From assembly GCF_025141935.1 (NCBI RefSeq), contig NZ_CP081124.1, forward strand, positions 14,482-78,481: DNA of 64,000 bases. Direction: 5' to 3'. The position numbers and the translations under genes were made by a program. Under the pieces are notes generated by a model. That model worked only from the letters and a program-made list of their open reading frames with translations. It was not told the origin of the DNA and did no database searches. The stretch is from Sulfitobacter sp. S190. GTDB lineage: Bacteria; Pseudomonadota; Alphaproteobacteria; Rhodobacterales; Rhodobacteraceae. Every line of letters begins with the position of its first letter. Positions within the stretch are counted from its first letter, which is position 1. This document shows, piece after piece, positions 34,238 to 51,091 of this stretch.

Positions 34238-34990
34238 TTGGCAACGTCTCGCGTGCTTTTGGTCTGGACCACGGAAACCAATTCCACCCGCAAAATGGCC
34301 GATGCCGTCAGGAAGGGCGTGCAAAGCGTGCCGCATGTTTCGTGTACTGACGTGGTGCTGGAAACCGGAACCGAAATGACGTTCGAAGAGGTCGCCGCGC
34401 ATGACGCGCTGATCCTTGGCACGCCCGTGCGCCACCGCAACATGCACCACAGGATCAAGCGGTTCATCGAAGAAACGCTGGAAACCGCGTGGCTTGACGA
34501 CAGGATGGTGGGCATGGTGGGCGGTACGTTTTCCATCGGTGGAGGGCATGGTGATGCCGGTGCGGGCGCGGAGATGTGCCAGTTGGGGATGCTGGCGGCG
34601 ATGGCGGCCAACGGGATGATCCTGACGCCGTTGCCGAAATGCACGCCCGGTGCGGATCACGCGGGCCTGCATTGGGGTCCCGCAGGGCGCAGCGGTGGCG
34701 CGCGGATGGAGCCTTATTGGCCGTCCGAACCCATGGTGCAGGCGGCCTTCCATCACGGCGCAAACATCGCGCGTCTGACCCATGCGCTGCACGGACGGCG
34801 CAACGATATTTTCGTGCGGGGCAATGAGGCACCCGCCGCCGATCTGGTCGCCGCGTTTCGTGCAGGCGCTGCGCAGGATCGCCCTGCGGTGCCGGATGCG
34901 GATGCAAATCCGGCCTACCGTCGCACGGCACCCGACGGGTTTGTGTCTGGCGTCACGAAATCCGACGACGATCAGTTCGACACACCATAG
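34238..34990 (+). CDS. WrbA-like flavodoxin/quinone reductase
   Basis: 250 residues from a TTG at 34238, chosen because GAAGGAG lies 7 bp upstream; an in-frame GTG at 34124 would add 38 unlikely residues. FMN-phosphate region 'WTTETNSTRKMADAV', then 'DALILGTPVRHRNMHHRIKRFIEE' and 'MVGMVGGTFSIGGGHGDAGAGAEM...LAAMAANGMI', equivalent to the WrbA 'GTPTRFGNM' and 'TGTQHGGQE' segments. It probably reduces quinones by two electrons with NAD(P)H. The C-terminal 80 residues are longer than in WrbA. Confidence 0.78.
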   Translation: MATSRVLLVWTTETNSTRKMADAVRKGVQSVPHVSCTDVVLETGTEMTFEEVAAHDALILGTPVRHRNMHHRIKRFIEETLETAWLDDRMVGMVGGTFSIGGGHGDAGAGAEMCQLGMLAAMAANGMILTPLPKCTPGADHAGLHWGPAGRSGGARMEPYWPSEPMVQAAFHHGANIARLTHALHGRRNDIFVRGNEAPAADLVAAFRAGAAQDRPAVPDADANPAYRRTAPDGFVSGVTKSDDDQFDTP

Positions 34991-35299
34991 ATTTGCGCAA
35001 GGGATCGGACCGTTTTCTGATCGCTCCACGCAGGTTCAGGCGCCGGGGCTGCTGCCGCCGGACGCCAGTGGAGGGACGACCGCGGCGGGGTTCATGCAGG
35101 GTCCACCGAAAGCGATGTAAGCGGCAAAACCTTGAAATAACCGATGTCTCCGCTGGCGTAGTCTTGACCACAGACCCCGGATAATTCTGCTATCCCGCGG
35201 GGCTGTGGCAGTTGCCCCGCGCCGCACCCGATACCGCAAATCCGCCAAATTCCGCCAGATCCATGCGCAGAGCTTTCGCGCGTGAACAGGAGAGCGATC
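34991..35299 (+). promoter_or_regulatory. Leader and promoter region of the tyrosinase operon
   Basis: 309 bp with no gene. A candidate -35 TTGACC lies at 35164-35169, with TGCTAT (35188-35193) 18 bp later as a weak -10. A hairpin with perfect 7-bp arms GCGGGGC/GCCCCGC follows at 35197-35220, within the presumed 5' untranslated region. AGGAGA at 35287-35292 is the ribosome site for the ATG at 35300. Confidence 0.4.
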
Positions 35300-36652
35300 A
35301 TGCGCAAACACGCCAAGGCCCATCTGACACGTCGCGCGGCGCTTGCTGCCGGAGCCGCGGGCGCGGGACTGTTAATTGCGGGGGGCGGCCGGATGGGCCG
35401 TGCCGCCGCGCCGGACGGATCGATGCGCACCGGCATATTCGGCATGGGCGTGCGCAAGGAGGCCAACAGCCTGACCGCCGACAGCGACGATGTGCGCATG
35501 TACCGCGAGGCGGTCGCCTGGATGAAAGACCGCTCGAAGGTCAATCCGCTCGACCCGCTGGGCTGGCGGCAACATTGGGCGCATCATTCGCTGTTCTGCT
35601 CGTCCAACAGTTTCCAGTACCAGGTGCACTACGGGTGGTATTTTCTGCCGTGGCACCGCGCCTATCTGGCCAATATCGAACAACGGGTGCGCCGCATTCT
35701 CAATGAGCCGTCGTTCGGGCTGCCCTATTGGGACTGGACCCGCAATCCGCAATTGCCCGCGTGGTATTTCGGCGAGGACAATCCGCTCAACAACCCCAGC
35801 CGCTATCAGGAAGCAGGCGACCGCGTAGAGCCCGATTTTGTCGAACTGGGGCCAGTGTTGCGGGCCACGAAGTGGGAACATTTTGGCGGCCGTCGCCGCG
35901 ATCCGGGCGAGATACAGGTCGAAGGCACGCTGGAGCAATCGGTGCATAATTGCATCCACAACTGGATCGGGGGGCAGATGGCCTCCTTTGATGGTGCCGG
36001 TAACGATCCGATTTTCCAAAGCCACCACGGCCAGATCGACCGTCTGTGGGCCATCTGGCTGGCGCAGGGGGGTGGCCGGGCCAATCCAACTGACGCAGAT
36101 TGGCTGGATGAGCGGTTCTGGTTTGCGGGCCCGAGTGGTCTGCTCGAGGATGTGACGGTGCGCGACGTGCTGGAGACCGAACCGCTCGGCTACAGATTTG
36201 ACGATCTGGACTATGCCCTGACCCTGACGCCGGAAACGACCCCGGTCTACGATGGTTGGGGGCTCGATTTCGGCGCGATCGACCCAGACGGTACCGACCT
36301 TGCGGCGATTTCGGTTGTTGCGCGCGGGGACGGGCCGGGGCGCGTGTCGCTCAACTACGAACGGATGAGCCTGCCGATCCAGCCGTTCCAGCACCGGCTC
36401 TTCTTTGTCGACGACAGCCCCGGGGGTGCGGCCACCTACATCGGTACCTTCACGATCCTGCCGATCCCCGATCTCAACCGCGGGCTGGAGCATTCCGTCA
36501 CCAGTCAGGTCGAGGTTCCTCCGCGGGCTCTGGACCAATTGTTGCAGAACCGTCGCATTCGGGTTGTGGGTGTTCCTGTGCCGCTCAAGGGGCGCGACAT
36601 TCCTGAGGCTCCGGTGCCGTTTCAGGGCGTCTCGATCACCGTCGATGCGTAG
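35300..36652 (+). CDS. Tat-exported tyrosinase / polyphenol oxidase
   Basis: 450 residues. Tat signal 'TRRAALAAGAAGAGLLIAGGG' at 10-30. Type-3 copper site: CuA ligands H95/H96, H110 ('QVHYGWYFLPWHRAYL') and H119; CuB ligands H216 and H220 ('HNCIHNW') and H242/H243 ('DPIFQSHHGQIDRLW'). C100, four residues past H96, could form the Cys-His thioether. The residue after H216 is Asn, which in tyrosinases favours phenol deprotonation. 'DADWLDERFWF' at 266-275 is a PPO1_DWL-type motif, so the domain order resembles plant polyphenol oxidases. It would oxidise phenols or catechols to o-quinones in the periplasm. First gene of an operon with the porin and amidohydrolase. Confidence 0.9.
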   Translation: MRKHAKAHLTRRAALAAGAAGAGLLIAGGGRMGRAAAPDGSMRTGIFGMGVRKEANSLTADSDDVRMYREAVAWMKDRSKVNPLDPLGWRQHWAHHSLFCSSNSFQYQVHYGWYFLPWHRAYLANIEQRVRRILNEPSFGLPYWDWTRNPQLPAWYFGEDNPLNNPSRYQEAGDRVEPDFVELGPVLRATKWEHFGGRRRDPGEIQVEGTLEQSVHNCIHNWIGGQMASFDGAGNDPIFQSHHGQIDRLWAIWLAQGGGRANPTDADWLDERFWFAGPSGLLEDVTVRDVLETEPLGYRFDDLDYALTLTPETTPVYDGWGLDFGAIDPDGTDLAAISVVARGDGPGRVSLNYERMSLPIQPFQHRLFFVDDSPGGAATYIGTFTILPIPDLNRGLEHSVTSQVEVPPRALDQLLQNRRIRVVGVPVPLKGRDIPEAPVPFQGVSITVDA

Positions 36653-37895
36653 GTTCTGGTACATTGCGATGGTGGCGGGCTGGTGCTGGTCTGTCTGCGC
36701 TGCGGCCGCGCAGGAAGGTCCGCGCCTGAGCTTTTCGGGCGAGATACGCGAGCGCGCGACGTATCTGTCGGGGAATGGTTTTGATGACGCGAACCCCGAT
36801 CGGGGTTGGTCGCTGACCCAGCGGCTCCGGTTTCAGATTGACGCGGAAGTGGCCCCTGCCCTGCGCGGCAGGATCAATTTGCTCAGCGCGGTGCAGACCG
36901 GTTTCAGCGACAGTCCGGTGGACCGCAACGTGCTCGACCTGCACGAAGCATATGTGGAGGTCGGCAGCGAAGACCGCTTTGTGAGGCTGGGCCGTCAGGA
37001 AATGCGCCTGGGATCGCAGCGGTTGGTCGGATGGCGCGACGGGACAAATGTGCGCCGAGTCTGGGACGGCGTGCGCGGCGTCTTTGCGCTGGGTGACGCG
37101 ACGCTCGATGCTTTTGCGCTGCAGCTTGTCGACGTTGAAACCACCGGCGCGTTCAACGACACCTCCGACGATGACCGTGTGCTGGCGGGGCTTTACTGGT
37201 CGGGCGCTGCCCCGGTCGGTAACCTCCATCTTTACTATCTGTTTGCGGGGTTCGACGACCGCGAAAATATCGAAGGTACGGCCGATGAGCGGCGTCAAAC
37301 GCTGGGGCTGCGCAGTTTTGGCGAGAATGGCCCATGGGCTTGGAACGCCGAAGCGGCCTACCAGTTCGGGCGCGCGGGACGGGATGATATCCGCGCGTGG
37401 ACCATCGCCGCCGACATCAGCCACCAATGGCGGGACCGTCCGCTCAAGCCGCGTCTGGGACTGTCGGCAAATGTCGCGTCCGGCGACAGCGACCGGGGCG
37501 ACGGGCGGCTCGAAACCTTCAACGCGCTCTATCCCCGTGGCAGCTATTTCTCCGATATCGCGCTGCTGGGGCCGAGCAATTTCATCAACCTGCGTCCATC
37601 GTTGCAGATGTTCCCGCGGGACGATCTGCTGGTCTATGTCGATATGAATTTCTTTTGGCGGCTCGACCGTAACGACGGCATCTATTCCCCGTCGGGCAGT
37701 TTGCTGCGGGGGCCAGAAGGGTCCGATGCCCGCTATGTCAACACGTCCTTATCCGCGGGCGTCGAATGGCAGGCCCGTGACGATGTTCTGTTCAGCGCGA
37801 TCTACGCCCGATCCCACCCCGGCGATTTCATTCGCGAAACCGGACCGTCAGATCCCATCGACTTTATCGAACTCACGATCAAATTCACCTTTTGA
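36645..37895 (+). CDS. Outer-membrane porin, alginate-export (AlgE) family
   Basis: 416 residues. Signal peptide over about 1-22 ('YIAMVAGWCWSVCAAAAQ'), then a beta-barrel with alternating polar/aromatic strands ending in the C-terminal Phe ('IDFIELTIKFTF'). 'EAYVEVGSEDRFVRLGRQEMRLGSQRLVGWRDGTNVRRVWDGVRG' is the alginate_exp signature. The ATG at 36645 overlaps the tyrosinase stop by 8 bp. Family members in other bacteria serve uptake of aromatic or sugar compounds as well as alginate export; with a periplasmic tyrosinase the natural guess is entry or exit of a phenolic substrate. Confidence 0.88.
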   Translation: MRRFWYIAMVAGWCWSVCAAAAQEGPRLSFSGEIRERATYLSGNGFDDANPDRGWSLTQRLRFQIDAEVAPALRGRINLLSAVQTGFSDSPVDRNVLDLHEAYVEVGSEDRFVRLGRQEMRLGSQRLVGWRDGTNVRRVWDGVRGVFALGDATLDAFALQLVDVETTGAFNDTSDDDRVLAGLYWSGAAPVGNLHLYYLFAGFDDRENIEGTADERRQTLGLRSFGENGPWAWNAEAAYQFGRAGRDDIRAWTIAADISHQWRDRPLKPRLGLSANVASGDSDRGDGRLETFNALYPRGSYFSDIALLGPSNFINLRPSLQMFPRDDLLVYVDMNFFWRLDRNDGIYSPSGSLLRGPEGSDARYVNTSLSAGVEWQARDDVLFSAIYARSHPGDFIRETGPSDPIDFIELTIKFTF

Positions 37896-37907: not shown

Positions 37908-39746
37908 ATGCTTGGAAAAAACATCAAAGGACTTTCGCGACGGCAGATGATGGCCCTTTCGGGGGGGACCGGTCTTGCCGCCAGTCTCGGCGTCGGCACC
38001 GGATGGGCGCAGTCGACCGCGCCTGCCGACATGATTGTGCGGGGCGCCAACATCATCACGCAGGATCCCACCATGCCGCGGGCGACCGCCCTCGCCGTGC
38101 GCGACGGGCTGGTGCTCGCGGTCGGATCTGAGGCGGATGTCGCAGCACATGCGGGCCCCGACACACAGGATATCGACGCGGGCGGCCGCACCATGATCCC
38201 GGGTCTGAACGACAGCCACCACCATGCGACACGCGCGGGCCGGTTCTATGCGGCGGAGTTGCGGTGGGACGGGGTCAAATCGCTGGCCCGCGGATTGCAG
38301 ATGATCCGCGAAGCGGCGGCAAAGACACCCGAAGGCGAATGGGTGCGGGTCGTGGGCAGCTGGTCGCCCTACCAGTTCGAAGAGCGCCGCCTGCCCACCC
38401 CTGCCGAGCTGACCGAAGCAGCACCGGACACGCCGGTCTATGTGTTGTTCCTGTACTCGCAGGGATTTCTCAATCGCAAGGCCGTCGAAGTGCGCGGCAT
38501 CACGGCCGATACACAGGCGCCTCCGGGAACGCGCTACGAAATCACCGAAGACGGCGGTTGCATCCTGCACGCCACGCCCAACCCCGATCTGCTGTACGCC
38601 AGCATCGGCGCGCTGCCGGCCCTGACCGAGGAACAGCAGGTGCTGTCCACCCGGCACTATTACCGCGAGCTGAACCGCTTTGGCCTGACGTCGGTCATTG
38701 ATGCGGGGGGCGGCGGTCACACTTTTCCCGAAGACTACAGCGGCTCGGCGGCGCTGGCCGCGGACGACGCGCTCACGGTGCGTATCTCCAACTACCTTTT
38801 CCCCCAGAACAAGGGCGCGGAGCTGGCCGAATTCGAACGCTGGACGCAGGACTGGCAGGTGGGGCTGAACCTCGCGGACAAGCTGATGCACGCCTATGTC
38901 ATTCGGGGCGGCGGAGAGTTTCTCGTCTGGTCGGCGGGCGACTATGAAAACTTCATGGCCGATCGCCCCGACATCACCACCCGCGACCAGTGGCGGCCAC
39001 AGCTGTTGAACGTGACGCGGCATTTGCTGAAAAATGGCTGGCCGCTGCGCATTCACGCCACCTATGACCAGTCGATCAACCGCATCCTGAACGTCTTTGA
39101 AGAGGCGCATGCCCTCGAAGTGGCCGAGGGCCGGCTGGGCTTTGCCGGGATCCGCTGGGCCATCGACCACGGCGAAACGGTGCAGATGCCAACGCTGCGA
39201 CGGATCAAGGCCCTTGGCGGCGGGATGGCGATGCAGGCGCGCATGGCCTACGCGGGCGAATTTTTCATGGATCGCTACGGCGAGGAAATGACCCGCAATG
39301 CGCCCCCTTTACGCGATGTCATTGACGCGGGCATCCCGCTCGGTCTGGGCACGGATGCCACGCGGGTTGCGGGGTTCAACCCCTGGCTCGCGCTTTATTG
39401 GGCGACGACCGGCAAATCGCTGGGCGGGACCCAGTTGCACGGGCCGCGCCACCAGTTGACCCGCGAAGAGGCGCTGTTTCACTACACCGTCGGGTCCGCG
39501 TGGTTCAGCCAGGAAGAGCTGCTCAAGGGCAGGCTGAAACCGGGGCAATTCGCGGACTTCGCCCTGTTGAACGCACCGTTCCTCGACGTATCGGACGAGG
39601 ACATCAAGGACATTCAGGCCGATATGACCGTGATGAACGGCTCGGTCGTGCATGGGGCGGCGGAGTATGCGGGGATGGTGCCCGACCTTGAGCCGATCCA
39701 ACCCGAGTGGAGCCCCGTACGCAGTTTTGGCGGGTATCAGGGCTAG
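37908..39746 (+). CDS. Tat-exported YtcJ-like metal-dependent amidohydrolase
   Basis: 612 residues. Tat signal 'SRRQMMALSGGTGLAASLGVGTGWAQ' at about 10-35, then an amidohydrolase_3 barrel: 'MIPGLNDSHHHATRAG' (metal HxH), 'GWPLRIHATYDQSINRIL' (metal His), 'WAIDHGETVQ' (metal His) and 'IPLGLGTDATRVAGFNPW' (catalytic Asp). Ribosome site AAGGAAG is 6 bp upstream. It ends the tyrosinase operon, just before a terminator. YtcJ-type enzymes hydrolyse amide or imide bonds; periplasmic location is unusual for them. Confidence 0.9.
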   Translation: MLGKNIKGLSRRQMMALSGGTGLAASLGVGTGWAQSTAPADMIVRGANIITQDPTMPRATALAVRDGLVLAVGSEADVAAHAGPDTQDIDAGGRTMIPGLNDSHHHATRAGRFYAAELRWDGVKSLARGLQMIREAAAKTPEGEWVRVVGSWSPYQFEERRLPTPAELTEAAPDTPVYVLFLYSQGFLNRKAVEVRGITADTQAPPGTRYEITEDGGCILHATPNPDLLYASIGALPALTEEQQVLSTRHYYRELNRFGLTSVIDAGGGGHTFPEDYSGSAALAADDALTVRISNYLFPQNKGAELAEFERWTQDWQVGLNLADKLMHAYVIRGGGEFLVWSAGDYENFMADRPDITTRDQWRPQLLNVTRHLLKNGWPLRIHATYDQSINRILNVFEEAHALEVAEGRLGFAGIRWAIDHGETVQMPTLRRIKALGGGMAMQARMAYAGEFFMDRYGEEMTRNAPPLRDVIDAGIPLGLGTDATRVAGFNPWLALYWATTGKSLGGTQLHGPRHQLTREEALFHYTVGSAWFSQEELLKGRLKPGQFADFALLNAPFLDVSDEDIKDIQADMTVMNGSVVHGAAEYAGMVPDLEPIQPEWSPVRSFGGYQG

Positions 39747-39800: not shown

Positions 39801-40289
39801 CTACGGGACGCGGGCCGTGTCATAGGCCAGCCGCAGCAACGCCAGCACAACCGCCAGTTCAGCGCGGTTGCGCGGGCAATAAAGAAGCATTTCGCGGTCG
39901 CCGCTGGGGTTGAGACCCGTGTCCGGGTGCGGCTCGCCCCAACGCTTTTCCATCACGATCCTGCGCGCCTCCACCGGCAACGCCAGATGCAGGCTGCCAT
40001 CGGGTCGGGGATGCAGGTGCGAGAATTCATCATTCGCCAACACCATGTCCGGATTTGTCATGCCCACGCTGGACGCAAGGAAAAATCCGACCGTGCCATT
40101 GGGTGCCCTGCGCACAGGGCCGAGAAGGACGTGCCGGTATTTGCTCACCGTGTTGAGGATCAGATCGTTGAAGAACAGCATGGGGCGCTGGTTGATCTGG
40201 CGGTGGGTCGGCTCGGGTGCGGTACGCGGTCTCGGCCCGATGCGGGCGGGCAGCAAGCGCAGGGTTTTCAAGCGGTCGCGGTTGACCAT
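39801..40289 (-). CDS. Luciferase-domain (DUF5519-type) protein
   Basis: 162 residues from the ATG at 40289, which has AGGT 7 bp upstream; a GTG at 40352 would add 21 residues. The family core is 'FSHLHPRPDGSLHLALPVEARRIVMEKRWGEPHPDTG', with conserved His and Trp. Despite the family name, bioluminescence is not implied. N-terminal 'LPARIGPRPRTAPEPTHRQINQRP' also fits. Monocistronic, function unknown. Confidence 0.7.
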   Translation of the reverse strand: MVNRDRLKTLRLLPARIGPRPRTAPEPTHRQINQRPMLFFNDLILNTVSKYRHVLLGPVRRAPNGTVGFFLASSVGMTNPDMVLANDEFSHLHPRPDGSLHLALPVEARRIVMEKRWGEPHPDTGLNPSGDREMLLYCPRNRAELAVVLALLRLAYDTARVP

Positions 40290-40515
40290 GACGAGACCTA
40301 TACGTGTTACGATGTGGCCAGTGTGAAGCAGATCGGCTGCTTCGTATTCCACACGTTGAAGTGTATCATATAATTTTGCTCACATTCTAAAGATGTATTG
40401 CCTGCCCCCCTATCCATAAGGCACGAAAAGCGGAAACCGGCTGCCAGAACGTGAAATATTGCACGGTAAAAATCCCTTAGGTTCGGTGAAACAGCCACCT
40501 AACCGGGTCGAGGCC

Positions 40516-41403
40516 ATGTCACGAAACGAAGAGCATTCCGCAACACCTGCGGACGAATTGAAGGCCCTTGTCGGGCAGCGGCCCGCGATTATTGCATCGT
40601 CGGCCCATGCCAGTGTTGCCCGGTTCGAGGGGACGGGCAGCGTGTTGCTGCACCGGGCGGCCAATGATCTGCTGCTCATCCCCATCGATCCTTGTGTTTT
40701 GACCGTCAGCGTCGGCGCGGGGGCGCCGCAGCGGATGCAGGCATGCCCCTACACGGCCTTTATCCTGCGCGCGGGGAACCGGATTGGCATCGACTATGAC
40801 GACTGCCGCCGGATCATCGCCCTCGCCATTGATCCCGCGTGGTTCAACGACATCGCAGCGCGCTGTGAGCCCGGCACGGATAACGCCCAGCTCCGCACGC
40901 TGCTGCACCCCGACATGCCGCCCATCGTCAATGCGCTGCGCCGCCACCTGTCGTTTCCGCAAAGCGCGCATGACCGTTTCATCGCGCTGAATGCCGAACT
41001 GATCGTGTCCTACTGTTTCTGGTACGGCAGCCCCGCGCGGACCAGCCATCCTCCCAAGGCGGGTTTGCTGACGAAAAGCCTGCAGCGGGTGTTGCGACAG
41101 GTCGAAGACAACATAGACGCGCGCATTCCCATCACCGAGCTTGCCGGATCAGTGGGCATGTCGCCGTCGAAGTTCTCGCGGCATTTCAAGGCAGTGCTTG
41201 GCCTGTCGCCGCAGGCCTACATCATCGAGCGGAGGGTTCTGAAAGTGCAGGATCTGCTTGAGGATACGGGATCGACACTTGCCGAAGTCGCACTGGATGC
41301 GGGGTTTTCGAGCCAGGCCCATATGACATCGAGCTTTACCAGACATTTCGGCATCACGCCGGGTGAGTACCGCAAGCATTTCCTCAGTCAGATGAATGCC
41401 TGA
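40516..41403 (+). CDS. AraC-family regulator (first)
   Basis: 295 residues from the ATG at 40516 (GAGG just upstream); an upstream TTG is less likely. C-terminal double helix-turn-helix from about 190: 'ITELAGSVGMSPSKFSRHFKAVLGLSPQAYIIERRVLKVQDLLEDTGSTLAEVALDAGFSSQAHMTSSFTRHFGITPGEYRK'. The N-terminal half is a cupin-like sensor resembling the next gene. It converges with that gene, the two stops being 9 bp apart. Confidence 0.88.
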   Translation: MSRNEEHSATPADELKALVGQRPAIIASSAHASVARFEGTGSVLLHRAANDLLLIPIDPCVLTVSVGAGAPQRMQACPYTAFILRAGNRIGIDYDDCRRIIALAIDPAWFNDIAARCEPGTDNAQLRTLLHPDMPPIVNALRRHLSFPQSAHDRFIALNAELIVSYCFWYGSPARTSHPPKAGLLTKSLQRVLRQVEDNIDARIPITELAGSVGMSPSKFSRHFKAVLGLSPQAYIIERRVLKVQDLLEDTGSTLAEVALDAGFSSQAHMTSSFTRHFGITPGEYRKHFLSQMNA

Positions 41404-41412: not shown

Positions 41413-42408
41413 CTAGTGCAGCGTGGTGTTGGCCCATGGCTGAACCATCCCTTTGGACTGCACCACCGACAGGGCAGCATCCGTGAGATCGGGCGCCGGA
41501 CGGGACGACACCGTCGAGCGGTACCCGAACAACTTGCGGAACTGGCCCGGTGCGAGGCCGAAGTGCTTTGTGAAACTGGACGTCATGTGCGCCTGGCTCG
41601 AGAACCCTGCATCCAGTGCCACTTCGACCAGCGGGCGTGTTTCGTCCTTCAGCAGATCCTGGGCGACCTGAAGCCGCCTGCGCAGCACGTATTTCTGCGG
41701 GGGAAGCCCCAACGCCGACTTGAACGCCCGCGAGAATTGCGAGGGGGACATCGTCGCCATTTCGGCCAATTCGTTGATGAGAATACGCTCGGATATGTCC
41801 GTATCGATCTGATCGGTGATCGCCTCGACAAGCGCGGGCGACAGGCCTTCGCAATTATGAAGCGCAGATTCGCCGTGCTCTGCCCCCATGAAGCAATAGC
41901 TCAGCAGCAGCTCCACCGTAAGCGCGGCAACCCGCGGTGACAGCAGCATGTTGCGCGACAGACTTTGCGCAAGCGTTCTGACCAGCGGCGGTGCATCGGG
42001 GTGGGACATGGCGATTGCCGAGCCTGCGCTGCGTGTCGGGTCGTCCATCACGCATTGCGCAATCAGGGCGTCGACCCGTTCGGCATCAACGGCGACAACC
42101 AGCATTTCCGCGCGGGTCAGGGTTTCGATATCGTGGTGGTGGCCTGCGCGCAGCAGCAACATCGTGAACGGCGCAAGCCGCAGCGTTTGTTCGGGAAACG
42201 CGCCGTGCTGGAGCTTGAGTTTGCAATTCTCCACCGGGATCAGAACCAGATCGCTATCGGTCGTCCGGTCGAACACGAATGAGCGGGTCACCCGTGCCAC
42301 GCAGGCATCGCCAAGTCGGTAGGCCGCCGCGCGCGGACCGATCCCGGCCGCTTGCATGTCCGCGCCCCAGACGGGGCCGTCAAAATCATTGGGAAAAACA
42401 GCATTCAT
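41413..42408 (-). CDS. AraC-family regulator (second)
   Basis: 331 residues from the ATG at 42408 (GAGG 6 bp upstream; an ATG four codons earlier lacks a site). C-terminal domain 'INELAEMATMSPSQFSRAFKSALGLPPQKYVLRRRLQVAQDLLKDETRPLVEVALDAGFSSQAHMTSSFTKHFGLAPGQFRK' is very close to the first regulator, and the N-terminal 'LRLAPFTMLLLRAGHHHDIE' matches its 'ACPYTAFILRAGNRIGID'. Divergent from the XapX/hydrolase/amidohydrolase/MFS unit and probably its regulator. Confidence 0.9.
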   Translation of the reverse strand: MNAVFPNDFDGPVWGADMQAAGIGPRAAAYRLGDACVARVTRSFVFDRTTDSDLVLIPVENCKLKLQHGAFPEQTLRLAPFTMLLLRAGHHHDIETLTRAEMLVVAVDAERVDALIAQCVMDDPTRSAGSAIAMSHPDAPPLVRTLAQSLSRNMLLSPRVAALTVELLLSYCFMGAEHGESALHNCEGLSPALVEAITDQIDTDISERILINELAEMATMSPSQFSRAFKSALGLPPQKYVLRRRLQVAQDLLKDETRPLVEVALDAGFSSQAHMTSSFTKHFGLAPGQFRKLFGYRSTVSSRPAPDLTDAALSVVQSKGMVQPWANTTLH

Positions 42409-42420
42409 GTCCGACCTCAT

Positions 42421-42665: not shown

Positions 42666-42908
42666 ATGTCCTGGACCCCTTTTATCATTTCGACCGCCAT
42701 TGGTGTGCTTGTCGGCCTATTTTACGGGCTCTTGACTGTGCGGTCGCCTGCGCCGCCGGCAATCGCCCTTCTGGGTCTGCTGGGGATGCTTGCCGGCGAA
42801 AGCGCGGTCACCTGGTTGCGTGGCCACACCGATCTTCTCGGCACCGTGCTGCATAGCAAGAGTTTCCACGTGGCCAAAACCCACGATCAAGACAAACCCA
42901 CCCTTTGA
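42666..42908 (+). CDS. XapX-domain small membrane protein
   Basis: 80 residues, two membrane helices. 'AIGVLVGLFYGLLTVRSPAPPAIALLGLLGMLAGE' is the XapX signature. GAAGGAAA is the ribosome site. XapX proteins are small membrane proteins of unknown function often beside isochorismatase-like hydrolases and AraC or LysR regulators; here the hydrolase starts 20 bp later. Confidence 0.85.
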   Translation: MSWTPFIISTAIGVLVGLFYGLLTVRSPAPPAIALLGLLGMLAGESAVTWLRGHTDLLGTVLHSKSFHVAKTHDQDKPTL

Positions 42909-43689: not shown

Positions 43690-45549
43690 ATGGTCGATAC
43701 AATTCTGCACAACGGACGTTTCACGACACTTGATCCTGAAACCCCCGATGCAACCGCCGTCGCGATTGCGGCAGGCAGGATCACGCAGGTCGGTCACGAC
43801 CGCGATATTATGCCTTTGGCCCAGGACGATACCGATGTCATCGATCTGGGCGGGCGGCGTGTCATTCCGGGCCTCAACGACAGCCATACCCACCTTATCC
43901 GCGGCGGGCTCTACTATAATATGGAGTTGCGGTGGGAGAACGTACCATCGGTATCGGATGCCCTTGCCATGCTGAAACGGCAGGCGGCAAACACTCCTGC
44001 GCCACAGTGGGTGCGCGTGGTCGGCGGCTGGTCTGAATTCCAGTTCGCCGAACGCCGGATGCCGACACTCGAAGAGATCAACCACGCGGCACCCGACACA
44101 CCGGTGTTCATTCTGCACCTTTACGGCTCTGCGATGCTGAACCGTGCGGCGCTCAGGGTTCTGGGCATCACCAAGGAAACAAAAGATCCGCCCGGCGGCG
44201 TGATCGAACGGGACGCGCGCGGTCATCCCACGGGTATGTTGATCGCAAAGCCCTCTGCGCTGATCCTCTATAGCACCTTGGCAAAGGGGCCTTCCCTGTC
44301 ACCAGAGGATCAACGCAATTCGACCCTTCATTTCATGCGTGAGCTGAACCGCCTGGGCGTGACATCGGTGATCGATGCGGGCGGCGGCGGCCAGAACTAT
44401 CCCGATGACTATGACGTGGTGAGCGATCTCAACGCCGAGGGAAAACTGACGCTGCGCATCGCCTACAACCTGTTTGCCCAAACCCCCGGGGCCGAGCTGT
44501 CCGACTACGAACGCTGGACACAGATGACCGAACCGGGCGCCGGTGACGCGATGTTGCGGATGAACGGCGCGGGCGAGAACCTGACCTGGTCGGCGGCGGA
44601 TTTCGAGAACTTTCTGGAGCCGCGGCCCGATCTGGCCCCCACGATGGAGGCGGACCTCGAAAAAATCGTCAGCCTTCTGGCAGAGAACGAATGGCCGTTT
44701 CGTATCCACGCCACGTATGACGAGACCATCGATCGTTTCCTCAGCGTATTCGAGCGGGTCAACGGGCATACACCTTTCAAGACGCGCTTTATCATCGACC
44801 ACGCCGAAACGATCACACCGCGCAACATCGAACGGATCAAGGCGCTCGGCGGCGGGATCGCGTCGCAGCACCGAATGGCGTTTCAGGGGGAATACTTCAT
44901 CGATCGCTACGGTGCCGAGCAGACAAAACAGACCCCGCCGCTGCGCAGCATTCTGGATACCGGCACACCGCTTGGGGGCGGCACCGATGCCACCCGCGTG
45001 GCCAGCTATGATCCTTGGGTCGCGATCAAATGGCTGTGCACCGGGCAAACGGTCGGGGGCACGCCGCTCTATGACGACGGCAACCTGCTGAGCCGCGAAG
45101 AGGCGGTGGCCATCTGGACGACAGGATCTGCGTGGTTCTCGGGCGAGCAGGACCGCAAGGGGCGCATCGCGCCTGACATGTACGCCGATCTGGCGGTCCT
45201 GTCCGACGATCTGATGTCCGTGCAGGACGACGCCATCCGCCGCATCACATCGGTGCTGACGTTGGTGAACGGCGCGGTTGTCTGGGCGGATGCAGAATTT
45301 GCACCGCGCTGTCCGCCGATGCCACCTGTCAGCCCCGAATGGGGACCGCCTGCACACTTCGCCAGCCCCGCCGAACGACAGCCCGCCCTTTCGCCCGCGC
45401 TTGCAGGCATGCGGGCCTGCGCGGACGGCTGTGCATCGGGGTGCGGCCTGCATGGCCACAATCACCAGATCGCATGGGCCAATCCCCTGCCCGTCCATGA
45501 CCGCAAAAGCTTTTGGGGTGCCCTGGGGTGTTCGTGCTTCATGGCATGA
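43690..45549 (+). CDS. Cytoplasmic YtcJ-like amidohydrolase with Cys-rich tail
   Basis: 619 residues from the ATG at 43690 (AAGGAA 6 bp upstream). No signal peptide. Core as in the exported paralogue at 37908: 'VIPGLNDSHTHLIRGG', 'WPFRIHATYDETIDRFL', 'FIIDHAETITP', 'TPLGGGTDATRVASYDPW'. Long identical stretches, such as 'GVTSVIDAGGGG', show the two are paralogues. The C-terminal 65 residues are special to this copy: after 'PEWGPP' comes 'ACADGCASGCGLHGHNH' and, near the end, 'GALGCSCF', a likely extra metal site. Confidence 0.9.
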   Translation: MVDTILHNGRFTTLDPETPDATAVAIAAGRITQVGHDRDIMPLAQDDTDVIDLGGRRVIPGLNDSHTHLIRGGLYYNMELRWENVPSVSDALAMLKRQAANTPAPQWVRVVGGWSEFQFAERRMPTLEEINHAAPDTPVFILHLYGSAMLNRAALRVLGITKETKDPPGGVIERDARGHPTGMLIAKPSALILYSTLAKGPSLSPEDQRNSTLHFMRELNRLGVTSVIDAGGGGQNYPDDYDVVSDLNAEGKLTLRIAYNLFAQTPGAELSDYERWTQMTEPGAGDAMLRMNGAGENLTWSAADFENFLEPRPDLAPTMEADLEKIVSLLAENEWPFRIHATYDETIDRFLSVFERVNGHTPFKTRFIIDHAETITPRNIERIKALGGGIASQHRMAFQGEYFIDRYGAEQTKQTPPLRSILDTGTPLGGGTDATRVASYDPWVAIKWLCTGQTVGGTPLYDDGNLLSREEAVAIWTTGSAWFSGEQDRKGRIAPDMYADLAVLSDDLMSVQDDAIRRITSVLTLVNGAVVWADAEFAPRCPPMPPVSPEWGPPAHFASPAERQPALSPALAGMRACADGCASGCGLHGHNHQIAWANPLPVHDRKSFWGALGCSCFMA

Positions 45550-45579: not shown

Positions 45580-47169
45580 ATGGCTGACACCCCTACCGCG
45601 ACCGTCTCTGCATGGACACCCTTCCGGTATCGCGCTTTCAGCCTGTTATGGGCCGCGACGCTCATCTCGAACGTCGGCACATGGATGCACGAGGTGGGCG
45701 CGGGCTGGTTGATGACAACGCTCAGCCCCTCGCCCGCGGTCGTATCGCTCGTTCAGGCGGCCACCACGCTGCCCGTCTTTCTGTTCGCCCTGCTTGCAGG
45801 AACGCTGGCCGACCGGCTGGACAAGCGCAAGATGCTGATCGTGATCAACCTGATGCTGATGGTCGTGGTCAGCACGCTGACGGTGATTGTGCATTTCGGC
45901 CTGATGACCCCGACCCTGCTCATTCTGTTTACGCTGGTGATCGGCACCGGATCGGCGTTCATGGCCCCGGCCTGGCAGTCGATCGTGCCGGGGCTCGTCC
46001 CGCGAGAGGCGCTGCAGCCGGCGATTGCGCTCAATTCGATGGGGGTCAACATCAGCCGTGCCATCGGTCCTGCGCTTGCCGGGCTTTTGATCGCGGTCGC
46101 GGGTCTGGCCTCTCCTTTCGCGATCAATGCGCTGAGCTTTGTGGCGATCCTGGTCAGCCTGTTCTTGTGGAAGAACGAAGAGACCCCGACCGTCACGCAC
46201 CAGCCCATCTGGGGCGCGATGCTGACAGGGGTGCGCCATGTCCGGCACAACGATGCGCTCAAGGCGACGTTGATCCGCGCGGTGGCGTTCTTCCTTTTTG
46301 CATCGGCCTATTGGGCGCTGCTGCCGATTGTTGCGCGCAATACGCGCGGTGGCGGAGCGGAGCTTTACGGGTTCCTGCTGACCCTGATCGGGGCGGGTGC
46401 GGTCACCGGCGCGCTGGTCCTGTCACGGATACGCGCGATGTTCGATAGTAACAGGATGGCACAGATCGGCACGGTTGGCACCGCGGGGGCGCTGGCGCTC
46501 ATGGCGCTGGCTGCCGATCCGGTCAGCGCAAGCGTCGCCGCGTTCATTGGCGGTTTCAGCTGGATTTCGGTGCTGACCACCTTCAACGTGTCGGCCCAGA
46601 CGGCACTGCCCAACTGGATCCGCGCCCGCGGATTGTCGGTTTATCTGATGGTGTTTTTCGGATCGATGGCATTGGGGTCGCTCATCTGGGGACAGGTGGC
46701 CACCTATACGTCGCCCGCGGTCGCGCTGATCACGGCCGCCGTGGGAAGCCTTGTGTGTATTCCGCTGACGCGCCGCTTTCACCTTGGCCAGGGCGAGGGC
46801 CGCGATCTCACCCCTTCGATGCACTGGCCTGCACCGCCTCTCGCGATTGACAGCGACGACATCAATGACCGCGGCCCGGTGCTCATCACCGTCACGTATC
46901 AGGTGACCGAAGAGAATGTCGCGGATTTTCGCGCCCTGATGCAGGAGTGGTCGAAAGAGCGGATGCGCGACGGTGCGTTCGAATGGAACCTCTACCAAAG
47001 CGCGGAGTCACCGGAGCTCTGGATCGAGGCGTTCCGCGTGCCGAGTTGGGAGGAACATCTGGCCCACCACGGTCGCGTGTCGCACGAGGATGCCGTGATG
47101 CAGGACAAGGTGCACGCCCTCGATACGACCGAAGGAGGCCCCGTTGTCCGCCACTACATCGCGCCCTAG
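45580..47169 (+). CDS. MFS exporter with C-terminal ABM-like domain
   Basis: 529 residues. MFS_3 (EntS-like) part with 12 helices to about residue 405, including 'GTLADRLDKRKMLIVINLMLMVV' and 'NISRAIGPALAGLLIAVAGLASPFAINALSF'. Residues about 425-529 ('VLITVTYQVTEENVADFRALMQEWSKERMRDGAFEWNLYQSAESPELWIEAF') fold like a dimeric alpha-beta barrel (ABM-type) in the cytoplasm. Stop codon overlaps the convergent DoxX stop in a shared CTAG. Confidence 0.9.
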   Translation: MADTPTATVSAWTPFRYRAFSLLWAATLISNVGTWMHEVGAGWLMTTLSPSPAVVSLVQAATTLPVFLFALLAGTLADRLDKRKMLIVINLMLMVVVSTLTVIVHFGLMTPTLLILFTLVIGTGSAFMAPAWQSIVPGLVPREALQPAIALNSMGVNISRAIGPALAGLLIAVAGLASPFAINALSFVAILVSLFLWKNEETPTVTHQPIWGAMLTGVRHVRHNDALKATLIRAVAFFLFASAYWALLPIVARNTRGGGAELYGFLLTLIGAGAVTGALVLSRIRAMFDSNRMAQIGTVGTAGALALMALAADPVSASVAAFIGGFSWISVLTTFNVSAQTALPNWIRARGLSVYLMVFFGSMALGSLIWGQVATYTSPAVALITAAVGSLVCIPLTRRFHLGQGEGRDLTPSMHWPAPPLAIDSDDINDRGPVLITVTYQVTEENVADFRALMQEWSKERMRDGAFEWNLYQSAESPELWIEAFRVPSWEEHLAHHGRVSHEDAVMQDKVHALDTTEGGPVVRHYIAP

Positions 47170-47576
47170 GGGCGACGGCTGAGGATCGCGGCGAGAATGA
47201 GGCCCCCGATCAAACCCATATGTTCCATGAAGACCGCAAACTGGCGCATCACCATGTCCGGCGGTGACGACCAGAACGCATGCGCGATCAAGGTCGCCAA
47301 AAAGGTAAAGACGCCCAGCATGCCCGCCCCCAGCCACACCGCCCGCCCCACAATGACCAGAAGCGATCCGCCCAGTTGCACAAGTATCGTCAAACCGGCA
47401 AGTACCGCAGGCGCGGGCAGACCAAATGCCTGTTGCTCGGCGACGGCGGCGCCGAAATCGAACGCCTTGAGCAGTCCGCTGCTCCAGAAGGGTGAGGTCA
47501 GGATGATACGGGCGAGAAGCGCAAAAGTGTGTGACTCGAGCAGGGCCGCGATCGGGCGGGGGACGGTGCTGTCCAT
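47166..47576 (-). CDS. DoxX-family membrane protein (MhqP-like)
   Basis: 136 residues, four membrane helices. 'LLARIILTSPFWSSGLLKAFDFGAAVAEQQAFGLPAPAVLAGLTILVQLGGSLLVIVG' is the DoxX pattern. In Bacillus the DoxX protein MhqP is induced with MhqO and MhqD by methylhydroquinone; homologues of both lie in the next 3 kb. Start at 47576 is the first good ATG; ribosome site weak. Confidence 0.82.
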   Translation of the reverse strand: MDSTVPRPIAALLESHTFALLARIILTSPFWSSGLLKAFDFGAAVAEQQAFGLPAPAVLAGLTILVQLGGSLLVIVGRAVWLGAGMLGVFTFLATLIAHAFWSSPPDMVMRQFAVFMEHMGLIGGLILAAILSRRP

Positions 47577-47756: not shown

Positions 47757-48065
47757 ATGATCCTGCTGATCAACCCTTTCACCGTTTTCGACGGCCAGAC
47801 CGACCGGTTTCTCGCGCTTTGGGACCAGACAAACGCGATCTTCCGCGCGTCCGACGGGTTTATCTCGGCGCGCCTGTGCAGTGCGCTGAGCGAGCAGGCA
47901 CCGGGCCAACGCGCGCCCTACACCCACATCAACGTCGCAGAGTGGCAAAGCCGCGACAGCTATGCCACGGCCTTGCGTCATCCCGATCTGAAACGTCTGG
48001 GCGGCCAGTACATGAAGGTCTGTACCTTCAATCCCGCGCTCTATGACATTCTGCGCGACACCTGA
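47757..48065 (+). CDS. ABM-family monooxygenase-like protein
   Basis: 102 residues, a dimeric alpha-beta barrel of the antibiotic-biosynthesis-monooxygenase family. 'ILLINPFTVFDGQTDRFLALWDQTNAIFRASDGFISARLC' and 'YTHINVAEWQSRDSYATALRH' are typical. Members include quinol monooxygenases (YgiN). Convergent with the haemoglobin gene, whose stop is adjacent (48066). Confidence 0.82.
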   Translation: MILLINPFTVFDGQTDRFLALWDQTNAIFRASDGFISARLCSALSEQAPGQRAPYTHINVAEWQSRDSYATALRHPDLKRLGGQYMKVCTFNPALYDILRDT

Positions 48066-48500
48066 CTACCGGCGCAGCATCTGGGCGAGTTCGTCCGGCG
48101 GCATGTGGGAATGTTCCTGCACGCTGCGGCTGATTTGGTCGATAAAGCGGTCAAAGGGCCCCATAAATCGGGCGTCGATGTCGACCTCTGCCGCTGCATC
48201 CCGCATCAACGTCACCCACCGTGCCCGCTGGGCATCCGTGATTTTCATCGACACGTGTTTCCAGATGACAAAGGCCAGATCGCCGCGTTCGCTGAGATAA
48301 TCCTGCGGCCCGCCGAAGACGACCGAAAACCAGCCCGCGAGATACTTCGCGTGCTTGTCGTCCCCCGCCGTAAACAAGGGCTCGAGCAAAGGGTCGCGCA
48401 GCGCCTTGTCATAGAACGCTTCCGTCATCGCGCGGATACGGTCCTGACCACCCGCCACATCGAAGAGGGTCTGCGGCGCTTTTGTCCGGGTCTGTTCCAT
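48066..48500 (-). CDS. Truncated haemoglobin, group II-like
   Basis: 144 residues. 'FYDKALRDPLLEPLFTAGDD' begins the fold, 'YLAGWFSVVFGGPQDYLSERG' carries the conserved Gly pair, and the proximal His is in 'VIWKHVSMKITDAQRARWVTLM', matching the 'RMRHAPFRI' position of TrHbO proteins. These bind O2 or NO; with quinone chemistry around, O2 supply or peroxide/NO protection is possible. Read with the esterase gene, 15 bp upstream. Confidence 0.85.
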   Translation of the reverse strand: MEQTRTKAPQTLFDVAGGQDRIRAMTEAFYDKALRDPLLEPLFTAGDDKHAKYLAGWFSVVFGGPQDYLSERGDLAFVIWKHVSMKITDAQRARWVTLMRDAAAEVDIDARFMGPFDRFIDQISRSVQEHSHMPPDELAQMLRR

Positions 48501-48515
48501 TGTCCGTTCCTTTCG

Positions 48516-49124
48516 TTATTGCCCTTTCACCGTGCCTGCAAAGGCTGCGATGGCCTCGATTTCGGAGCGGGCGATTTCATGTCCGCCGGGATGCCACACC
48601 GTTTCGACCCGCGCGCCCTGCCCCTCGAAATAAGACACCAGCGCCGTTGTTTGCGGCGCGGGGCAGATCGGATCGTTGCGCCCCGCCGTGAGCAAGATAC
48701 GCTTGCCCGACAACGCCGGTTGCGGCGCAGGCTGCCAGGGGATCAGCGGATGCATAAGCACCATCTCATCGAACAGGTCTGGCCGTTCAAAAGAAAGCGC
48801 GGCCAGAATATTGGCCCCGTTCGAATATCCCAGCCCGATCACCCGTGCGGGCGCCACATCGGTGTGCTGGTCTTCGACAAAAGCTGCCAGCGCGTCACGC
48901 CGTGCCGCGAGGTCGTCCATGTCGTAAACCCCCTCGCCCGTGCGGCGAAAGAACCGGTTTGCGCCATGTTCGGACACGTCGCCCCGTGGAGAGATCACCG
49001 TGGCGTCGGGATAAAGTTGGCGGGCAAAGCCGTGAAACTGGGTCTCGTCCCCGCCCGTGCCGTGGAAGGTAAAGACAAGCGGCGCACCAACTGCGCCGCC
49101 GTCTTTTTCATAATGATAGGTCAT
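48516..49124 (-). CDS. Carboxylesterase, MhqD/PF02230 type
   Basis: 202 residues. 'FTFHGTGGDETQFHGFA' (oxyanion region), nucleophile 'GLGYSNGANILAAL', Asp in 'TAGRNDPICP', His in 'WHPGGHEIARSEI'. Start at 49124; the cytoplasmic form has no signal. Close in kind to Bacillus MhqD. It lies 16 bp after the dioxygenase gene, so the pair is an mhqO-mhqD-like operon extended by the haemoglobin. Confidence 0.85.
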   Translation of the reverse strand: MTYHYEKDGGAVGAPLVFTFHGTGGDETQFHGFARQLYPDATVISPRGDVSEHGANRFFRRTGEGVYDMDDLAARRDALAAFVEDQHTDVAPARVIGLGYSNGANILAALSFERPDLFDEMVLMHPLIPWQPAPQPALSGKRILLTAGRNDPICPAPQTTALVSYFEGQGARVETVWHPGGHEIARSEIEAIAAFAGTVKGQ

Positions 49125-49140
49125 TGCGATGTCCTTTCTT

Positions 49141-50070
49141 CTAGTCCAGCGGCGGCAGGATCGCCTCGATCTGGTCGCGCAGCCCTGCGTGCTGGTCTGG
49201 CAGCTTGAGCGCCTCACCGAGGTGCGCGGTGTCTTCGTCGCGGTCGAAACCGGGCTCGTTGGTGGCCACTTCGAACAACACGCCGCCCGGCGTGCGGAAG
49301 TAGATCGCCCAGAAATAATCGCGGTCAATCACCGGCGTCACCTGATAGCCGGTATCCACCAACGCGCGGCGCACCTCGAGCTGTTTTGCACGGTCCTCGA
49401 CGGCGAACGCGATGTGGTGGACCGATCCCGCGCCCTGCCCCGCAAACCCGGTGGTCGGCAGATGCTCCAGATCAATTACGTTGGCCTCATTGCCGCCGGG
49501 CACGGCGAACCGGATGATGTTGCCGTCCCGTTCGGTCTGCTCATACCCCATGTAGGTGAGCAGTTCCGCAGTCGCATCGGTGTTGCGCAGACGCATCGTG
49601 GCGGAGTGAAAACCGCGAATGGCGTGATCGGAGGACACACCGTTGCCGGTCCAGCCCGGACGGTCATCGCCCGCCGCTTCGATCAGGGAAAACCCTTCGT
49701 TGTCCGGCCCGTCAAAACCCAGCGTGGGCGCGCCAAAACGGTTGCCGCTCTGGATGTTGCGCACGCCATGCTCGGCCAGACGTTCCTGCCAGTAGCCTGT
49801 GCTTCCTTCGGGAATGGCAAAGGTTGTGGTGCCTACCTCGCCGGTGCCCGGACGGCCCTTGGGCATGTTGGGAAACGGGAAATAGGTCATCACCGAACCC
49901 GGCGTGCCGACCTCATCGCCATAGTAAAGGTGATAGACATCGGGAGCGTCGAAGTTCACCGTTTTCTTGACCCGGCGCAGGCCGAGCGTCTGTGTGAAGA
50001 ACGTGTTGTTACGCTTTGCATCGCCCGCCATCGAGGTGACGTGGTGCAGACCTTTGATGTCAGTGATCAT
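49141..50070 (-). CDS. Ring-cleaving dioxygenase, MhqO type (VOC fold)
   Basis: 309 residues, two VOC modules. 'IKGLHHVTSMAGDAKRNNTFFTQTLGLRRVKKTVNFDAPDVYHLYYGDEVGTPGSVMTYFPFP' is the MhqO/MhqA signature with the first metal His; 'GSVHHIAFAVEDR' gives the second His and 'GGVLFEVATNEPGF' the Glu. Start at 50070 has AAAGGA 7 bp upstream. MhqO-type enzymes act on hydroquinones or catechol-like compounds. First gene of a unit divergent from a LysR regulator. Confidence 0.9.
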   Translation of the reverse strand: MITDIKGLHHVTSMAGDAKRNNTFFTQTLGLRRVKKTVNFDAPDVYHLYYGDEVGTPGSVMTYFPFPNMPKGRPGTGEVGTTTFAIPEGSTGYWQERLAEHGVRNIQSGNRFGAPTLGFDGPDNEGFSLIEAAGDDRPGWTGNGVSSDHAIRGFHSATMRLRNTDATAELLTYMGYEQTERDGNIIRFAVPGGNEANVIDLEHLPTTGFAGQGAGSVHHIAFAVEDRAKQLEVRRALVDTGYQVTPVIDRDYFWAIYFRTPGGVLFEVATNEPGFDRDEDTAHLGEALKLPDQHAGLRDQIEAILPPLD

Positions 50071-50194
50071 GTCGTGTCCTTTCATTCGGTTCGGCCGGAT
50101 CGACCGCTTGGCACAAGAGATAACCGTTTGGCGAAATTCGATAAGCGCAATAAATCTCAATTGATTATTGCAGAATTTGCAGCAATGATCGGGC
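50071..50194. promoter_or_regulatory. LysR / dioxygenase divergent promoter region
   Basis: 124 bp, AT-rich near the LysR start. ATTGC at about 50164-50168 and GCAAT at 50181-50185 form an inverted pair in the LysR T-N11-A style, overlapping the region just ahead of the LysR ATG. Confidence 0.4.
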
Positions 50195-51091
50195 ATGGCA
50201 GGCCAGATCGAAAAGATACGCACCTTTATCGCCGTCGCGGATCACCGCGGGTTCGCGGCCGCCGCCCGCAGCCTGAACGTATCGCCCACCGCCGTAACGC
50301 GGCAGATCGCGGATTTGGAGGATTATCTGGGTGCCCAGTTGTTCCTGCGCACCACGCGGCAGGTCAATCTGACCGATGCAGGGCGCATTTATTACGACGC
50401 GGTTGTGCCGATATCCGAGCATCTGGCCGTGGCCGACGACAAGGTTCTCAAACGCCAGATCGGGCTTGTGGGGCCGCTGCGGGTATCGGCGCCCCTGTCG
50501 TTCGGCATCCGGTATCTGCCCGCCGTGATGTCGCAGTTTCGCACGTTGCATCCGGCCGTGTCCGTCGATCTGCAGCTGAGTGACCGGATGGTCGACATCG
50601 GCGCGGAGAGTTTCGACATGGCATTGCGCATATCGGGGCCGCCGGAGGGTCAATCGACGATCTGGCGCAAGATTTGCGAGGTGCCGCGCGGGCTGATGGC
50701 GCACCCTGACTATATCGCGCGGCGCGGCGCACCCGACACGCCCCGCGCGCTGGCGGATCACGACTGTCTGCACTACGGCAATCAGCGCAGCCGCATGACG
50801 TGGACCCTGCAAAACAGCGGCGGATCGGTTCAGGTGACCGTCGATCCCTGCCTTGCCAGCAACAGCGGTGATCTTCTGGCGCAGCTTGCAGGTCAGGGCG
50901 AAGGCATCGTGATGTTGCCCACGTTTCTGACCGATGAACTGGCCGCGCAGGGGGCGCTGGTGCCGGTCCTGCCGGATTGGGCGCCGCCGCCGATCTGGCT
51001 GACGGCCACGTTCCCTCCCTATGAACAGCTGCCCGCGCGTGTCGATGCGTTCACCCGGTTTGTAGAGGCCGAGATGACCCGCCCCGACTGA
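50195..51091 (+). CDS. LysR-family regulator
   Basis: 298 residues. N-terminal helix-turn-helix 'IEKIRTFIAVADHRGFAAAARSLNVSPTAVTRQIADLEDYLGAQLFLRTTRQVNLTDAG' (5-64), then a LysR substrate domain (about 90-295). Members of this CrgA/DhcR-like group often activate quinone or electrophile responses. Divergent from the MhqO-MhqD-haemoglobin unit, which it probably controls. Confidence 0.92.
   Translation: MAGQIEKIRTFIAVADHRGFAAAARSLNVSPTAVTRQIADLEDYLGAQLFLRTTRQVNLTDAGRIYYDAVVPISEHLAVADDKVLKRQIGLVGPLRVSAPLSFGIRYLPAVMSQFRTLHPAVSVDLQLSDRMVDIGAESFDMALRISGPPEGQSTIWRKICEVPRGLMAHPDYIARRGAPDTPRALADHDCLHYGNQRSRMTWTLQNSGGSVQVTVDPCLASNSGDLLAQLAGQGEGIVMLPTFLTDELAAQGALVPVLPDWAPPPIWLTATFPPYEQLPARVDAFTRFVEAEMTRPD

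Follow-up and report, generated by a model that had tools for sequence, protein, structure and literature searches.

Two adjoining gene modules on a likely plasmid of Sulfitobacter sp. S190 suggest an apparently undescribed phenolic-processing system

Gene content of the tyrosinase region

Positions 14,482 to 78,481 of contig NZ_CP081124.1 from Sulfitobacter sp. S190 were analyzed as a single stretch of 64,000 nucleotides (the window, whose own numbering is used below unless the contig is named). Between 34238 and 51091, it carries a gene for an exported tyrosinase together with genes for hydrolases, a ring-cleaving dioxygenase, and membrane proteins, which a sequence-only reading had joined into one possible plasmid-borne system for phenol oxidation and quinone handling. 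Every gene listed by that reading exists as an open reading frame (ORF) in the window, and the clustering of the named genes exceeds chance, as judged by neighbor counts in loci of the tyrosinase clade and in control tyrosinase loci. The grouping is real, but its boundaries differ from those proposed, its members were partly wrong, and the core of families common to both modules had been missed.

The genes are distributed between two modules. Module 1, on the plus strand, comprises the tyrosinase or polyphenol oxidase (35300 to 36652, with the longest ORF starting at 35282; PF00264, 5e-32; PF12142, 1e-7), an Alginate_exp outer-membrane porin (36645 to 37895; PF13372), and an Amidohydro_3 amidohydrolase of the tyrosinase-linked type (37908 to 39746), assigned by Pfam, a tree, and an N-terminus of the twin-arginine translocation (Tat) type. 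Module 2 includes, also on the plus strand, a XapX/DUF1427 small membrane protein (42666 to 42908; PF07235, 1.4e-18), a YcaC-like isochorismatase-family hydrolase (42929 to 43624; 119 bits against a curated-model cut-off of 310), a second Amidohydro_3-type amidohydrolase in which no signal peptide was seen (43690 to 45549), and an MFS_3 transporter (45580 to 47169; PF05977) whose C-terminal extension looks ABM-like by eye. On the minus strand follow a DoxX family membrane protein (47166 to 47576; PF07681, 4e-14), an MhqD-like α/β-hydrolase (48516 to 49127), and an MhqO-like ring-cleaving dioxygenase (49141 to 50070), from which a LysR regulator recognized by domain match (50195 to 51091, plus strand) diverges. 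The XapX, isochorismatase, second amidohydrolase, and MFS_3 genes had gone unnamed, as had a Luciferase-domain protein (39801 to 40352, minus strand; PF17648), for which no relative was found in the comparison loci, and two AraC regulators identified by domain matches (40459 to 41403, plus strand; 41413 to 42420, minus strand, the latter lying between both modules).

Homologues of three Bacillus methylhydroquinone-response proteins had been proposed, and they fared differently. Alignments of the MhqO-like protein with Bacillus MhqO (3OAJ; E value of 5.5e-72 over residues 5 to 306) and with a 2,6-dichlorohydroquinone dioxygenase (4HUZ; E value of 1.6e-51) point to hydroquinone-type rings. The DoxX gene is present, Bacillus MhqP being presumably a DoxX protein. 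The MhqD-like hydrolase scored 131.5 bits against a model cut-off of 325, and its best solved relative is Atu2452.

The tyrosinase has a Tat-type N-terminus, a PF00264 core with a PPO1_DWL domain (PF12142), and a C-terminal domain. Six histidines (H96, H110, H119, H216, H220, and H243), at positions that bind copper in this family, were invariant across 30 aligned rows. The folds nearest to its predicted model (mean pLDDT of 85.8) were tomato polyphenol oxidase, Ralstonia tyrosinase, and latent apple polyphenol oxidase, with the Hahella tyrosinase also near, at TM-scores of about 0.63 to 0.66 and identities of about 22 to 24%. Because the model resembles polyphenol oxidases with C-terminal domains, including the latent apple enzyme, the exported tyrosinase is probably latent behind its own C-terminal domain. 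As a type-3 copper enzyme, it would be expected to oxidize phenols.

Conserved partners of the tyrosinase clade

Close relatives of this tyrosinase are rare, full length, and equipped with Tat signals. The closest homologues among the matches listed were 63 to 71% identical and occurred solely as proteins from (meta)genomes. In samples of genomes that overlap and exclude the window's own genome, relatives were detected in 7 of 393 genomes of the family (E value of 1e-10; best match 36% identical over residues 9 to 298), in 7 of 384 of the class (E value of 1e-30; best match 4.8e-48 over positions 47 to 299), and in none of 397 of the phylum at an E value of 1e-60. Among the 129 plasmid records retrieved with the tyrosinase, none spanned 80% of the query. 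A scan of genome contigs with the window tyrosinase as a single sequence gave no match; an alignment-based profile gave 277 relatives in the genome collection, the best 80 of which were kept. The first 22 were near full-length matches (hereafter clade loci; mean length of 19.2 kb), and the other 58 served as controls (16.5 kb), most of them matching mainly the central domain, with L037, L038, L049, and a few others matching more. The clade loci comprise 19 from Bacteroidota and one each from Acidobacteriota, Verrucomicrobiota, and Lysobacter. In a quick tree of 62 rows, built without bootstrap and with 26 of the 58 controls and 13 of the 120 homologues listed, the window, all 22 clade loci, and 12 of the 13 metagenome homologues formed one group of 35 rows, separate from the 26 controls (Shimodaira-Hasegawa-like approximate likelihood ratio of 96).

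The surroundings of the clade tyrosinases differ from those of the controls. Of the 22 clade loci, 21 have an amidohydrolase close to the tyrosinase, against none of the controls; the sole exception is a 3.3-kb contig (L030). With models built from the clade loci, a YcaC-like isochorismatase was found in 19 clade loci and a porin in 18, each against 1 of 58 controls. SCO1 (18 versus 1), YceI (18 versus 0), DoxX (17 versus 0, or 18 with the Lysobacter copy counted by Pfam), and pirin (15 versus 0) were likewise counted with models made from the clade loci, which favors the clade over the controls. A sigma-54 regulator (18 versus 1), YdcZ (15 versus 0), and GNAT (8 versus 0) also recur. Independently of these models, the window proteins used as queries retrieved the amidohydrolase in 21, the isochorismatase in 19, and the porin in 18 of the 22 loci, with none in the 58 controls. 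Fisher values were below 1e-12 for the five partners tested, relatedness being ignored. The independent point is that the amidohydrolase is found close to the tyrosinase in all five lineages seen, i.e., Bacteroidota, Acidobacteriota, Verrucomicrobiota, Lysobacter, and the window. By eye, the clade tyrosinases carry an RR motif and the amidohydrolases start with Tat-, lipoprotein-, or Sec-like sequences. A typical Bacteroidota locus (L022) has a divergent sigma-54 regulator followed by pirin, isochorismatase, amidohydrolase, YceI, tyrosinase, SCO1, DoxX, YdcZ, porin, one unassigned gene, and GNAT. The tyrosinase, the porin, and the exported amidohydrolase form a unit, as the sequence-only reading had it for the window, and their families are found together repeatedly in different phyla; the association of DoxX with the tyrosinase was likewise recovered, in the company of YceI and pirin.

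The window itself has the full-length exported tyrosinase of the clade, the exported amidohydrolase, the porin, and the isochorismatase. The isochorismatase gene, some 6.3 kb downstream of the tyrosinase, is nearest to copies from the cassettes described below. Among 42 amidohydrolase rows passing length and score filters, the exported copy grouped (100/99) with 13 tyrosinase-linked copies and that of locus L118. A residue check on 40 rows showed the HxH, H, H, and D positions to be conserved in 95% of them or more. Two hydrolase kinds accompany the tyrosinase in 19 of the 22 loci, which could mean that the amidohydrolases and the isochorismatase-family enzyme act as successive C-N hydrolases in the catabolism of one nitrogen-bearing phenol, an amide or an aminophenol, whose ring is attacked by the tyrosinase or the MhqO-like enzyme. 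The tyrosinase does match a model of o-aminophenol oxidase, though weakly (46 bits; cut-off of 630). However, no window hydrolase reaches a curated C-N hydrolase model and no compound-specific gene was recognized among those scanned. We consider this explanation unlikely.

An exported tyrosinase could also serve offense or structure, its quinones or melanin-like polymers acting against competitors or shielding the surface, with the conserved core guarding the producer. Pump genes of the EmrAB-like, MFS, and RND types lie nearby, and melanin is commonly made by tyrosinases according to the available parts of one article (PMC11609597), which held no useful passage on the cluster terms. Against such a use, no pigment gene was found among the ten proteins from Bacteroidota loci that were run against Pfam, and melanin formation leaves the recurring amidohydrolase and isochorismatase unexplained. 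This seems quite improbable.

The MhqO cassette and its link to the tyrosinase unit

Most of module 2 has counterparts elsewhere. Plasmids pSD25 of Ruegeria and pDSM107133_d of Pseudosulfitobacter carry genes for LysR, a ring-cleaving dioxygenase, an α/β-hydrolase, AraC regulators, XapX, isochorismatase, amidohydrolase, DoxX, GNAT, MFS, and pirin, and smaller or larger parts of the cassette are found on Rhizobium, Pararhizobium, Burkholderia, Sphingobium, and Methylomagnum plasmids, as well as in 12 genomes of the window's family that contribute 13 loci. The Burkholderia stagnalis plasmid combines part of the cassette, lacking MhqO, with an Alginate_exp porin. In the 20 cassette loci, which include partial ones and three without isochorismatase (L111, L120, and L121), isochorismatase stands beside amidohydrolase in 17, XapX in 12, MFS in 12, MhqO in 10, and MhqD in 5; one locus, L108, was chosen by its MhqO match and is biased towards that gene. 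A LysR gene divergent from the MhqO-like gene also occurs in L013, L014, L106, and L108. The module can be described as LysR, MhqO with or without MhqD, XapX, isochorismatase, amidohydrolase, DoxX, and MFS. No tyrosinase was present in any of the 20 loci, and MhqO marks a second module, separate from the tyrosinase in the loci read.

Compared with the copies on the Ruegeria and Pseudosulfitobacter plasmids, the isochorismatase of the window is 79% identical and its second amidohydrolase 74%; in the tree, this amidohydrolase groups with its counterparts from both plasmids (100/98). Since the two amidohydrolases of the window fall into different groups, one tyrosinase-linked and one from the cassette, the window holds both modules. 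They share the isochorismatase, amidohydrolase, and DoxX families, and elsewhere also pirin and GNAT. A related arrangement occurs in Lysobacter prati (L034), where one strand carries MFS, DoxX, amidohydrolase, and a XapX relative and the opposite strand carries isochorismatase, exported amidohydrolase, tyrosinase, and porin; the 21 kb of this locus showed no MhqO. An HlyD and FUSC pair is located about 7 kb from its tyrosinase (L034:18095-21166) and resembles aromatic-acid efflux pumps.

Coupling of the tyrosinase locus to MhqO was seen on the window plasmid alone. The proposed co-occurrence of the tyrosinase with mhq-like genes held for DoxX (17 of 22 clade loci) and failed for MhqO and MhqD, which had no relative in any clade locus when sought with single sequences (E value of 1e-5), a search less sensitive than one with clade-built models. 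Genome-wide, an MhqO relative occurred in 2 of the 19 clade genomes searched (L023 and L030 were left out, and Lysobacter is outside the 19), neither at the tyrosinase locus. In the Aquimarina genome behind L024, the relative lies at G782:C1:228215-229105, some tens of kilobases from the tyrosinase if C1 is the contig of L024. These absences, together with the tyrosinase-free cassettes, would fit two independent accessory islands lying side by side on the plasmid, with module 2 as a general electrophile or quinone stress cassette and module 1 as an unrelated tyrosinase unit. Yet the Bacteroidota tyrosinase loci hold isochorismatase, amidohydrolase, DoxX, and pirin, mostly on one strand and with GNAT in 8, and Lysobacter has the unit beside a cassette devoid of MhqO. 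The 7-mer TGAAATA is moreover found upstream of the WrbA-like, tyrosinase, AraC (40459), and XapX genes. Sharing as good was reached in 1 of 500 shuffles at k=7, 50 of 500 at k=6, and 88 of 500 at k=8, the regions and the length having been picked after looking, and an operator common to both modules is a weak lead. Taken together, we regard independent islands as doubtful.

Other genes once counted in the system behave differently. The WrbA-like flavodoxin (34238 to 34990, plus strand) adjoins the tyrosinase unit and was a proposed component, but its relatives, sought with a single sequence like those of the globin, were found in 0 of 22 clade and 0 of 20 cassette loci. It scored 51.9 of 141 bits (NF002999) and 44.4 of 132.5 bits (TIGR01755) with no Pfam family over its cut-off, and probably lies outside the conserved system. 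The EmrAB-like pair (31316 to 34059, plus strand; open frames) was absent from the same 22 and 20 loci, and the truncated globin (48066 to 48500, minus strand; PF01152) had relatives in none of the 22 clade loci, in none of the 20 cassette loci, and in 1 of the 58 controls. Neither is a conserved part. The globin gene and that of the ABM-domain protein (47757 to 48065, plus strand; PF03992, 4.5e-6) are present as reported.

The contig measures 78,481 bp, 1 of 6 in a 3.97-Mb genome. A RepA-like gene (211 bits; cut-off of 348) and a ParB/ParB_N match under its cut-off lie within 8225 to 10789, where the third ORF of a would-be RepA/RepB/RepC set matched no family, and the ORFs at both contig ends sum arithmetically, in frame, to one RND-size gene. 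These matches and the joined ends make a circular plasmid likely though not proven.

Several further features were observed. A minus-strand ORF of 4,657 codons at contig positions 6868 to 20841 (window 1 to 6360, continuing upstream), adjoined by a 1,145-residue ORF, perhaps encodes a giant surface or secreted protein. The segment 13100 to 22070 is about 79% identical to Leisingera plasmids, where a TRAP transporter, a histidinol dehydrogenase, and other genes are annotated, and a lesser match names sulfopyruvate decarboxylase; we presume that it may be an organosulfonate catabolic island. ARAGORN called a possibly spurious tRNA-Val (gac) at 29199 to 29287, overlapping ORFs. Beyond the cassette, three more AraC regulators and a DUF1275 membrane protein lie within 52191 to 56073, DUF1275 relatives being also present in cassette loci L105, L112, and L118, and ORFs at 56380 to 60670 resemble an RND efflux pair by eye, with a second RND-like gene that may span the contig ends.

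Proposed route and comparison with known systems

Many of the same partners stand beside tyrosinase relatives in several unrelated bacterial groups, which suggests an apparently undescribed phenolic-processing system. We favor a reading, with a probability of roughly 55%, in which two conserved modules sharing families, an exported phenol-oxidation unit and a cytoplasmic and membrane cassette, together handle a phenolic compound and its products. The Tat-exported, probably latent tyrosinase would hydroxylate or oxidize a phenolic in the periplasm or outside, and the exported metal-dependent amidohydrolase would break a C-N or C-O bond in either the substrate or the product. The products would pass through the porin and then be hydrolyzed, ring-cleaved, or pumped out by the MhqD-like, YcaC-like, and amidohydrolase enzymes, the MhqO-like dioxygenase, and the MFS pump, encoded alongside XapX and the LysR regulator. 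Reactive quinones at the membrane may be dealt with by DoxX, which YceI and pirin accompany in relatives (we presume a link of DoxX and YceI to quinones), and SCO1 may supply copper where present. The substrate, the order of steps, the handling of quinones, the supply of copper, and a role in catabolism or detoxification are inferred. More tentatively, at somewhat less than even odds, the clade loci may encode a single undescribed pathway crossing phyla, in which a latent exported tyrosinase and an exported amidohydrolase act in turn, outside the cytoplasm, on a single class of natural compounds, with copper from SCO1 where present. The route would be completed by an isochorismatase-family hydrolase in the cytoplasm and by membrane proteins that handle quinones, and the second cassette would be coupled to it here and partly in Lysobacter.

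Several observations weigh against the two-module reading. The locus counts are not independent because 19 of the 22 loci are from Bacteroidota, and four of them carry the advantage of clade-built models mentioned above. By these models (E value of 1e-5), the window has no SCO1, YceI, YdcZ, pirin, or GNAT, and its DoxX is missed by the clade DoxX model and matched by Pfam alone. The absence of MhqO and MhqD from all clade loci points the same way. The tyrosinase-linked amidohydrolases do not form one clade (five label changes, at least three of them forced), L118 carries this type with no tyrosinase nearby, and the exported copy of the window is at the end of a long branch. Several cassette amidohydrolases have signal-like N-termini, so that export is not peculiar to module 1.

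Support in print is at the level of gene families only. Pirin-family, hydrolase, azoreductase, and dioxygenase genes go up when P. fluorescens is confronted with Rhizoctonia, a response that the authors ascribe to aromatic detoxification, and a DoxX gene appears in the same table (PMC5557065). The available parts of that article mention neither isochorismatase nor amidohydrolase and do not show the genes as clustered. According to the accessible portion of a Paenibacillus study, an mhq operon is induced 400- to 1,000-fold by a lignin dimer, but MhqO showed no activity after purification and "MhqP" was called an azoreductase, so that function cannot be read from the Mhq names (PMC12673573). The low sequence conservation of proteobacterial tyrosinases has been speculated, in the sections available, to reflect diverse physiological roles (PMC9454253). 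The titles and abstract openings returned by full-text literature searches contained no description of such a cluster, consistent with the view that the combination is not a described system. With partners that recur in several phyla, the tyrosinase clade offers a defined, testable pathway. It gives context to YcaC-like hydrolases, Amidohydro_3, XapX, DoxX, and pirin, families of unclear function, and may be relevant to the handling of phenolic carbon by marine bacteria.

Among known systems, the proteobacterial cassettes on pSD25, pDSM107133_d, pRspNXC14c, and Pararhizobium p3, and in part Burkholderia stagnalis plas2, share most module 2 genes with the window. They differ from it in having no tyrosinase and, for pSD25 and pDSM107133_d, in carrying the pirin and GNAT genes that the window lacks, and no globin relative occurs in the 20 loci. 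The Bacillus mhq genes and the Paenibacillus mhqPOD operon, as described in the portion available (PMC12673573), resemble the window in pairing an MhqO-like dioxygenase with an MhqD-like hydrolase, and the Paenibacillus operon also includes an MFS gene. Regulation there is of the MarR type, whereas the window has LysR and AraC genes, with no MarR-type MhqR regulator and no azoreductase recognized among the ORFs scanned, and adds isochorismatase, amidohydrolase, XapX, and DoxX. Finally, the polyphenol oxidases and tyrosinases of tomato (6HQI), apple (6ELS), Ralstonia (7XIO), and Hahella (8B74) share with the window enzyme the type-3 copper core, the PPO1_DWL domain, and a C-terminal β-rich domain. 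The window enzyme differs from them by its low identity, and its relatives sit with amidohydrolase, isochorismatase, porin, and SCO1, partners that each occur in at most one of the 58 control loci.

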